A stretch of 64,000 bases of DNA. It comes from a gamma proteobacterium symbiont of Ctena orbiculata. GTDB lineage: Bacteria > Pseudomonadota > Gammaproteobacteria > Chromatiales > Chromatiaceae. A program made the translations under genes and the position numbers. The stretch spans positions 1 through 64,000 of the forward strand of contig NATW01000115.1 of NCBI GenBank assembly GCA_003094555.1, read 5' to 3'. Under the pieces are notes generated by a model. The model was not told where the DNA came from. It saw only the letters and a program-made list of their open reading frames with translations, and searched no databases. This document shows, one piece after another, positions 10,846 to 55,684 of this stretch (its first letter is position 1; the number at the start of each line of letters is the position of its first letter).

Positions 10846-11970
10846 ATGACCATTCATATCGGAATATTGACCTCCGGCGGCGACAGCCCCGGCCTCAATG
10901 CAGCAATTCGGGGCGTTGGCAAGGCGGCTGCCAATTTCTACGATATGCAGGTAATAGGAATACGTGATGGTTTTCGTGGCCTGGTTGAAAACCGCATCAT
11001 GCAACTGGATGGCGCCACACTTTCGGGGATTCTCACCCGGGGTGGCACCATTCTGGGCACCAGCAGGGAAAAACCCCACCGCATGAACTTCAACGGCAAA
11101 CGCCAGGATATGACCGATGTCATCGTTGAGAATTATCAGGCCCACCACCTGGATGCCCTGGTCTGTATCGGTGGCGGAGGGACGCAGAAAAATGCCTTGC
11201 AGTTGGTGGAAAAGGGGCTCAACGTTATTACCCTGCCCAAGACCATCGATAATGATGTGGCGCACACGGATACAACTTTCGGTTTCGATACGGCATTGGG
11301 TATAGCCACGGACGCCATCGATCGCCTGCACAGCACGGCTCACAGCCATCATCGGATCATCGTGGTTGAAATCATGGGGCATCGTGCCGGTTGGCTGGCA
11401 CTGGGGTCAGGCTTGGCGGGCGGCGCAGATGTCATACTATTGCCCGAGATCGGCTACGACATCGAAAACGTTGCGGAGGCCATCAGGGCTCGCGCTGTAG
11501 GCGGTAAACACTTCAGTATCGTTGCGGTGGCGGAAGGTGCGCTACCAAAAGGCGAATCTGAGCAGTATCAGGTGCTCAGGGAAAGAAAGGATGAGGCCGG
11601 CAACAAGAAGGATCGCAAGCAGGCAAAAGCGGAACTGGCCGCGTTCGAGGCCGCCCATGCAAACCATACGGTTACCCTCTCCCGCCAGCTTGAGGAGTTG
11701 ACCGGGCTCGAATCGAGGGTGACCATCCTCGGTTATCTGCAACGGGGCGGTACACCCTCCGCCGCGGACAGGCTGCTCGCTACCCGCCTGGGAACCGCCT
11801 GTACCGACCTGATATCGAAAGGTGTGTTCGGTGTCATGGTGGCGGCAAAGGGTGAACTCGCCGTACCCGTGCCCCTTACGGAGGTGGCGGGCAACAAAAA
11901 ACTGGTCCCCACCGACCACCCCTGGGTGGTCAGTGCGAAAAGGATTGGAATCAGTTTTGGGGATAGTTAG
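10846..11970 (+). CDS. pfkA: 6-phosphofructokinase, ATP- or PPi-dependent
   Basis: Phosphorylates fructose 6-phosphate in glycolysis, 374 residues, with AGGAG upstream of the ATG. The [18 protein letters not shown] nucleotide-site start and the catalytic TIDND motif are present. Two donor-determining places are mixed. The usual GGDGS (ATP type) or GGDDT (PPi type) is IGGGGT, and the residue before TIDND is Lys (LPKTIDND), as in PPi enzymes and the group III enzymes of actinomycetes. The phosphoryl donor therefore cannot be named. The stop codon lies inside a partial copy of the repeat described at 22192. Confidence 0.92.
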
Positions 11971-11986
11971 TGTTAACAGGCCCTAG
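11967..11986 (+). repeat. Partial copy (one end) of the MITE-like repeat
   Basis: TTAGTGTTAACAGGCCCTAG is identical to the right terminal inverted repeat of the complete element at 22192-22359. Only this end is present. The TAG at 11968-11970 inside it is the stop codon of the phosphofructokinase gene, so the gene's last codon and stop meet the repeat. Confidence 0.85.
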
Positions 11987-20884: not shown

Positions 20885-22189
20885 ATGGCGGATAACCAAA
20901 AGACCTATACCTTGACGAATGACGAGACTGGGGTGTCGATAAAATTGCCTGTAAGGGAATCGACGCAAGGTCCCCCCGCAATAGATGTCTCGGCACTCTA
21001 CAAAGAGGCCGGAGTCTTCACTTATGATCCAGGGTTTATGTCCACGGCAAGTTGTAAAAGTAAGATAACCTTCATCCAGGGCGAGGTGGGTATTCTGGAG
21101 TATCGTGGCTATCCCATTGAACAGCTGGCAGAAAATGGCGACTTTTTAGAGACTGCCTATCTGCTCTTGAATGGAGAATTGCCAACAGATGGGCAGCTGC
21201 AGGATTTCAACCAGCTGATCAACCGCCACACAATGTTGAACGAGACCCTGACCCATTTTTTTGATGGCTTTCATTATGATGCGCACCCTATGGCCATCAT
21301 GGTGGGGGTGGTTGGTTCACTCTCCGCTTTTTATCACGACTCACTGGATATCAATGATTCGGAGTTGCGCAGAGTCGCGGCGCACAGGTTGATTGCGAAA
21401 ATGCCGACGATTGCCGCGGCCAGTTACAAACACAGTGTGGGCGAGCCGTTCATGTATCCACATAACGAGCTCTCCTACTGCGCAAACCTGTTGCACATGA
21501 TGTTCGCCACCCCCTGCGAAGAGTATGTAGTGGATCCGGTTGCAGAAAAGGCACTGAATCTGCTTTTTATCCTGCATGCGGATCATGAACAGAATGCCAG
21601 TACCTCCACTGTGCGGCTCGCGGGCAGTTCGCTGGCCAATCCCTTCGCCTGTATCGCTGCAGGTATAGCGTCGTTGTGGGGGCCCGCACATGGTGGCGCC
21701 AACGAGGCGGTCCTGGATATGCTCAGTGAGATTGGTGATGTATCTCAAATTGATAAATATATCGCCAAGGCCAAGGATAAGGACGACGGTTTTCGTTTGA
21801 TGGGATTCGGGCATCGTGTCTACAAGAAGTACGATCCACGTGCTGGTATCATTCGCGAGGTTTGTCATGAGGTATTGGCAAAACAGACGGACACCAAGAA
21901 CAATCCAATGTTTGAGTTGGCTCAGCGGCTGGAAGAGATTGCACTGAATGATGAGTATTTCATCGAACGCAAGCTCTATCCGAATGTGGATTTCTACTCC
22001 GGTATCATCTACCGGGCGCTGGGTATACCCAACAACATGTTCACGGTAATGTTCGCTATTGCCCGGACTGTTGGGTGGGTGGCCCATTGGCTGGAAATGA
22101 TGGATGACCCGAGGCAGAAAATCGGTCGCCCGCGTCAGATCTATAAGGGTTATGCCAGACGCGATTATGTGCCTTCAAGCGAGCGATGA
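20885..22189 (+). CDS. gltA: Citrate synthase (type II, hexameric)
   Basis: Condenses acetyl-CoA and oxaloacetate, the first step of the TCA cycle; 434 residues, the length of Gram-negative NADH-sensitive enzymes. Catalytic segments are HADHEQN near residue 231, GFGHRVYK and VDFYSGI. The N-terminal small domain of type II enzymes is present. GGAG lies a few bases before the ATG. The downstream repeat begins two bases after the stop codon. The mirrored gene arrangement puts it convergent with a hypothetical gene. Confidence 0.97.
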
Positions 22190-22191
22190 TC

Positions 22192-22359
22192 TAGGGCCTG
22201 TTAACACTAATCCAATGCACTCTGCTGGGACTGTTTTTGCGCCCAGCAAGGCAGAATGAGCGTGGTGTAGCCCGGCTACATGAGCGAATGATAACGCCGC
22301 TGGGCGCAAAAACAGCCCCAGCCCTGCGGGGCGCATTGGATTAGTGTTAACAGGCCCTA
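22192..22359. mobile_element. MITE-like inverted-repeat element, complete
   Basis: A 168-base element with perfect 27-base terminal inverted repeats (22192-22218 and 22333-22359, starting TAGGGCCTGTTAACACTAAT). An inner 17-base block CTGTTTTTGCGCCCAGC recurs inverted, and the centre holds TGTAGCC/GGCTACA. It carries no ORF. It begins two bases after the gltA stop, and its right end supplies the TAG stop of the convergent hypothetical gene. TA at each edge would fit an IS630/Tc1-type target, an inference. Partial copies lie at 11967 and 55651. Confidence 0.85.
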
Positions 22360-22968
22360 ACTGCTTTCATCGACTGTTTCGATGAGTTGTTGCAGCTGTT
22401 TGATGGTCGCGCCCTGGATGGGCTGATTGTCCAGCGGATCTAATGGGCGGTTACGCGGGTTATGCGTTGGAAGCACGCTCAGTTCGAAACCGACACCGTC
22501 GGCAGTGAATAGAAAGCATGGTACCGACTCTATGTTGCCATCGCTGAAGTGCATCCGGCGCTGCTTTTCCTGCCAGGGGATCTGCAGATCGGTCAAAGTG
22601 AAGAGTAGATCTTCGGGGGTATCGGCAAACAGGTGCAATCGCACCTTGCTGTTACTATCGGCAGTACCATCCAGGACGGCACCCACAAGTCTGGGTTGAA
22701 ATTGTCTTAAGGCCTGCATGGCATTGAGCGCGCTGAGACGCAGGGCGTGCATGCTATCGGACTGACTTGACCCCCGCAGCAAGCGCTGTTGCTCCCTCAG
22801 TGCGTTTTCCACTTCGTCCCGGGAGGGTAGAAGCTGGCGTTTTGTGACACCATATTTCGCTGCTGCTTTCTGACAGGCATAACTGATGTTGTCACTACGC
22901 AGTTCGGTCAGAATGCGTGCTGCCTCATAGGCGATTAGTCGCTGTAATTCACGTTTTCCTGTCTGCAT
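22357..22968 (-). CDS. Conserved proteobacterial hypothetical protein
   Basis: A 203-residue soluble protein of a family I recall from gammaproteobacteria but cannot name. The N-terminal half is helical (R.LIAYEAARI..ELRSDNISYACQKAA). The C-terminal half has VGAVLDGTADSNSKVRLHLFAD, resembling the GS/D-x-D strand pair of minimal nucleotidyltransferases, which is a guess. It starts 7 bases after mrcA ends and is probably co-transcribed. Its TAG stop lies in the last three bases of the repeat at 22192-22359, so its original C-terminus may have been altered. Confidence 0.75.
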   Translation of the reverse strand: MQTGKRELQRLIAYEAARILTELRSDNISYACQKAAAKYGVTKRQLLPSRDEVENALREQQRLLRGSSQSDSMHALRLSALNAMQALRQFQPRLVGAVLDGTADSNSKVRLHLFADTPEDLLFTLTDLQIPWQEKQRRMHFSDGNIESVPCFLFTADGVGFELSVLPTHNPRNRPLDPLDNQPIQGATIKQLQQLIETVDESS

Positions 22969-55650: not shown

Positions 55651-55684
55651 TAGGGCCTATCGGATTAGTGTTAACAGGCCCTAG
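55651..55684. repeat. Collapsed copy of the MITE-like repeat
   Basis: TAGGGCCT (55651-55658), the first eight bases of the left end, is joined by ATC to GGATTAGTGTTAACAGGCCC and TAG (55662-55684) from the right end of the element at 22192. The 130-base interior is lost. This is what a near-precise internal deletion or excision would leave. Confidence 0.8.

Follow-up and report, generated by a model that had tools for sequence, protein, structure and literature searches.

Single arms of a palindromic MITE family in Candidatus Thiodiazotropha follow replication and are probably slippage remnants

A palindromic element was analysed in 64,000 nucleotides of DNA from a gammaproteobacterial symbiont of Ctena orbiculata (this whole stretch is called the window here). 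The element is a non-coding, non-autonomous hitchhiker transposon, and its structure and its dispersed copies support its membership in a large MITE family. In this family, single arms, here called solos, occur besides intact pairs, in some cases as alleles of the same locus, and their orientation follows replication. With a probability of about 0.8, the element is a non-autonomous IS5-family (IS427-type) MITE with the target YTAR, and the solos are deletions of the hairpin-forming MITE caused by lagging-strand slippage. The MITE itself is a known kind of element, and what is of interest is the polarity of its decay across the genome. No description of a replication-polarised conversion of two-armed MITEs to 33-bp solos was found for a MITE family in the open-access papers searched.

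Structure and position of the element

The sequence-only reading had described a complete, ORF-less element of 168 bases with perfect inverted ends of 27 bases and a central palindrome. The length, the missing ORF and the palindrome were confirmed in the sequence, and the coordinates of the ends are exact:

22192 to 22359, no strand assigned: MITE copy, 168 bp including the TA borders, module A only
22192 to 22218, plus strand: left terminal inverted repeat, 27 bp, TAGGGCCTGTTAACACTAATCCAATGC
22333 to 22359, minus strand: right terminal inverted repeat, 27 bp, perfect reverse complement of the left one
22224 to 22322, no strand assigned: module A, an inner 24-nt inverted pair around a palindromic loop

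The inner inverted block is present, but it is longer than the 17 bases noted before, as the pair comprises 24 nt (22224-22247 and 22299-22322) with an identity of 96%. The central palindrome is GTAGCCCGGCTAC, and the whole unit is a nested hairpin. Using DNA parameters, the fold energy of the window copy is -65.7 kcal/mol compared to -27.7 +/- 3.1 kcal/mol for dinucleotide shuffles (z -12.2), and the hairpin energies of the MITE copies range from z -12 to -15.

The position between convergent 3' ends was correctly recognized. One flank is a citrate synthase gene whose stop ends at 22189, and the other is a convergent ORF of 203 AA on the minus strand (22357-22968) for which no Pfam match was found. 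The CTA at the end of the element (22357-22359) is the TAG stop of this ORF, and the insertion therefore fixes the C-terminus of that protein.

The description as complete applies to both ends, which are whole, but not to the interior, which is deleted. The common lengths in the family are 269, 296 and 323 bp, a ladder with steps of about 27 bp, and full-length copies carry two hairpin modules, A and B. Since the window copy contains module A alone, it is an internally deleted derivative of the 269/296/323-bp element. Inside the MITE, a hairpin unit of 27 bp (about GCGCACCCCAAGGGCACTTCCTTCGGG) is found in 0 to 5 copies at different GCGC positions, and sister strains differ in its number at one and the same locus. 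Loci with this unit are L091 vs. L389, L081 vs. L378, L086:2090-2310 and L089:1509-1830. It was sighted 86 times within MITEs and about twice outside, the latter in what appears to be a degenerate MITE.

Comparison of the insertion site

The single-contig genome G056, which belongs to the same species, carries a 269-bp copy with the same flanks at the site of the window MITE, and its interior is inverted relative to the window's own genome (G000), a draft of 193 contigs. Compared to L228/L396, the element at 22192-22359 thus has its interior inverted and its length changed by about 100 bp between two strains at one insertion site. This is the sole true inversion, since the 'INVERTED' flags at the other compared loci are deletions. 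Recombination between terminal inverted repeats inverts insertion sequences (PMC3004938), and the flipped interior at a fixed site in G000 and G056 is similar to this. The difference is that a MITE is affected here, with an internal deletion as well, and that this is one case only.

Among the other species, the intergenic region was read in 17, none of which has an element at the window site, and these empty sites are too diverged for a base-exact junction. At L271 compared to L187, the empty site GCTTAG corresponds to GCTTA[GGG..CCC]TAG, in which TA is duplicated. Both comparisons with empty sites agree with the insertion that had been proposed. A conserved structured RNA, which a fixed position in relatives would have favoured, was considered as an alternative and rejected. 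That the 17 other species lack the element speaks against such an RNA at 22192-22359, and Rfam returned no match for the window MITE up to an E-value of 0.1.

Distribution and transposase affiliation of the family

A search with the 27-bp end yielded 54 matches in the own genome at up to three mismatches and none with the reversed control, in line with the further copies that had been expected. The family is present in all 22 Candidatus Thiodiazotropha genomes searched (the own and 21 others), a group of symbionts of lucinid clams according to public contig titles, and its ends number from dozens to hundreds in a genome. It also occurs in a few other genera, with further matches in Sedimenticola and Thiohalobacter. 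Its members are MITEs in being short and non-coding, with terminal inverted repeats and many dispersed copies. Nothing on this MITE family was found in the open-access literature on Thiodiazotropha.

Congeners additionally hold extreme miniatures with lengths from about 22 to 50 bp (L114:1502-1550, L435:1501-1548 and L342:3839), the smallest of which is TAGGGCCTGTTAACAGGCCCTA alone. Other genera of the bacterial family carry a diverged sister family with the ends TAGGGCCTGTTAACACTATGCGGATA (L097, L098 and L121; genera of G030 and G028).

The fetched DNA contained 121 distinct intact copies. At their borders, Y precedes TA in 118 and R follows TA in 120, which gives YTAR as the target and YTA...TAR as the borders. 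DUF4096 transposases were found in only one of the 22 genus genomes, G007, where two of three loci show an IS element, of 837 bp and 836 bp. This IS has the end TAGGGCCTGTTAACA, CTAG borders and a frameshifted ORF pair (DUF4096 and DDE_Tnp_1), and both parts of the transposase exceed the cut-off of the NCBI model NF033580 (transpos_IS5_3). Related IS5 elements in G031, G127 and G024 begin with GGG..TGT inside YTA..TA borders, and the IS elements mostly show the same borders as the MITE. A search for long-spaced pairs of terminal inverted repeats returned many chance or two-MITE spans and, as the sole real IS, L155/L156, and a plasmid search showed that the transposase family is widespread.

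The expectation of an IS with the same termini was borne out in part. The 837-bp IS of the congener G007 has only the outer 14-15 bp in common with the MITE, and no IS with the full 27-bp end was found, either among the IS elements recovered or in the own draft. In the 193 contigs of this draft, the search for a matching transposase gave 0 DUF4096 matches and one unrelated DDE_Tnp_1 (PF01609) ORF, which lacks a matching pair of ends. In its size, frameshifted ORF pair, GGG-type ends and 2-bp TA duplication in YTAR, the G007 IS resembles the IS427 group, of which IS1248 has 832 bp, a 2-bp duplication and two overlapping ORFs (PMC3281130). The MITE differs from this group in that it is non-coding, that its two 27-bp ends are identical, and that only 14-15 bp are common to it and the G007 IS.

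Because of the YTAR target, the TA duplication and the ends matching the IS5-type elements of G007, we conclude from these sequences that the MITE is most probably an IS5-family (IS427-type) derivative and not an IS630 one, and a transposase of this type may have moved the family. The TA borders had been taken to suit an IS630/Tc1-type transposase, and they are the only feature in favour of an IS630/Tc1-mariner MITE. This origin is very improbable, since the target is YTAR and all ISs found with such ends belong to the IS5 family and are of the IS427 type. Given the IS5 match, an IS630-type transposase with the same ends is unlikely, albeit not impossible. The end sequence and the target also point to IS5 instead of a REPIN/RAYT system.

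Solo arms as probable deletion alleles

Two partial copies had been noted in the 64 kb, and both were recovered:

11967 to 11985, minus strand: 19-bp solo arm (19 bp of one end); the G056 locus contains no element; arm and flank share ACACTAA at the junction
55651 to 55683, minus strand: 33-bp solo consisting of one arm and the final bases of the other; 163-bp intact copy in G056

At 55651-55683, the 33 bp of G000 stand against 163 bp in G056 between nearly identical flanks, so that 130 bp were deleted, and AGGC is shared at the junction. The notion of a family that has spread is supported by the many copies and the TA duplication, but this partial copy is a deletion remnant and not a separate insertion. 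At 11967-11985, ACACTAA marks the join between the G000 solo and the flank, and the left junction is not clean. The solo at G056:316751 lacks 318 bp that are present in G000; here, the deletion ends in the flank, and the junction shows the near repeat CACTAA(T/C)C. Solos also face a 134-bp copy in the sister strain at G056:630097, a 115-bp copy at L075 (pair L075/L387) and a 269-bp copy at L112 (pair L112/L348), with 7 extra mismatches at G056:630097 and 10 in L112/L348. Overall, the deletion junctions carry short direct repeats such as AGGC, CACTAA(T/C)C, GCCC and similar, and the exact microhomologies are short, with 1-6 nt by strict count.

Polarity of the solo arms

The fetched DNA contained 240 distinct solos compared to 121 distinct intact pairs, and 134 of the 240 have the look of a 33-bp unit, i.e. 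the arm plus GGCCCTA. Replichores were set by the dif site and GC skew, and the orientation of the solos flips where the GC skew flips. The lagging-strand rule states that the kept arm is the one that lagging-strand synthesis copies first. Counted in regions around the listed matches, which were chosen regardless of orientation and are not whole genomes, solos agree and disagree with this rule 24:5 in G056, 57:8 in G002 and 20:9 in G004. The three species pooled give 101:22 (p = 3e-13), while G004 alone, with 29 solos, is only suggestive (p = 0.06). The polarity is clear for the 33-bp solos (69:8) and weaker for the others (32:14), and 18% of the solos point the other way, some of them near dif. 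Both window solos fit the rule, as they lie on the minus strand and the GC skew of the window is positive. About 0.7 kb past the window end, there is a further 33-bp solo in the same orientation as the window solos (G000:C115:64726-64756).

No solo locus is common to G056, G002 and G004, and the solos therefore count as independent and are not inflated by shared ancestry. Among solos between tandem genes, replication was followed 40:12, whereas 27 point with and 25 against transcription, so that transcription is not the cause of the polarity.

Discussion

The solos are interpreted as slippage products because most of them retain the arm that is copied first in lagging-strand synthesis. The MITE inserts at YTAR, duplicating TA, and would form a hairpin on the lagging-strand template. 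The lagging-strand polymerase would copy the near arm of this hairpin, and its 3' end could slip past the hairpin onto a short direct repeat located in the flank or at the far end. The far arm and most of the MITE interior would thereby be deleted, and a solo arm would be left. Since such slippage would always keep the near arm, solos should point one way relative to the replication fork. A hairpin is presumably the intermediate in this decay, and we infer slippage rather than cut-and-join, which is also possible, as the deletion step.

Elements of the IS200/IS605 type insert into single-stranded lagging-strand DNA. The 33-bp solos could likewise be mobile units that are oriented upon insertion, as the polarity is strong, and strongest in this class, and many 33-bp copies of the same layout occur in several species. 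Their terminal TAGGGCC/GGCCCTA pair permits a small hairpin, and at L271 and L187 a 33-bp solo stands opposite a clean empty site. Nevertheless, this is quite unlikely, since the sister strain has a longer element with two arms at the loci of the solos at window position 55651 and G056:630097, and the solos at L202, L075 and 11967 continue into flank sequence instead of ending in GGCCCTA. Moreover, IS5-type transposases are DDE enzymes. Conserved polar chromosome signals, KOPS- or Chi-like, which the MITE merely contains, would match the dependence of solo orientation on the replichore. They are extremely improbable given that the three congeners have no solo locus in common, that solo sequences often extend into element-specific arm sequence, and that intact MITEs are sister alleles of some solos. 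It is decidedly improbable that the single-arm 33-bp units are independent mobile or functional polar units whose placement with respect to the lagging-strand template is set by a process coupled to replication.

Alternatively, an SbcCD-like nuclease could cut the hairpins of the lagging-strand template, with rejoining at microhomology and no slippage of the polymerase involved. In E. coli, hairpins of this kind are cut by SbcCD (PMC4245961), and microhomology is found at the solo junctions. However, breaks at interrupted palindromes in E. coli are repaired by recombination (PMC4245961), and cutting alone leaves the retention of one particular arm unexplained, which makes this route unlikely.

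For the slippage reading, there are precedents in E. coli. Interrupted palindromes act there like hairpins in the template of the lagging strand (PMC4245961), and for palindrome-stimulated excision with engineered repeats, the proposed model is lagging-strand slippage from one direct repeat to another (PMC5576700). The likeness to this palindrome-stimulated deletion (DIRex, Bzymek-Lovett model; PMC5576700, PMC4245961) lies in the lagging-template hairpin and the deletion between short direct repeats. The system is engineered there, whereas the MITE solos are a natural, genome-wide record with one deletion end within an arm. REPINs are also paired inverted short sequences that form a hairpin, and REP singlets are read as defunct remnants of such pairs (PMC3116915). 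Unlike REPINs, the MITE has ends that match a DDE insertion sequence and the target YTAR, and its solos are replication-polarised and were caught beside intact alleles.

Most work on palindrome slippage has used engineered inserts in E. coli, and the decay of this MITE makes a laboratory phenomenon measurable in nature. The family offers more than 100 independent solo loci in three genomes, some of them with intact sister alleles, so that strand preference, repeat choice and the hairpin deletion rate become measurable in wild bacteria. The orientation of the solos could also serve as an independent mark of replication direction in draft genomes of uncultured symbionts. If the solos arose by slippage, these genomes preserve, in their broken MITE copies, fossils of slipped replication at DNA hairpins.
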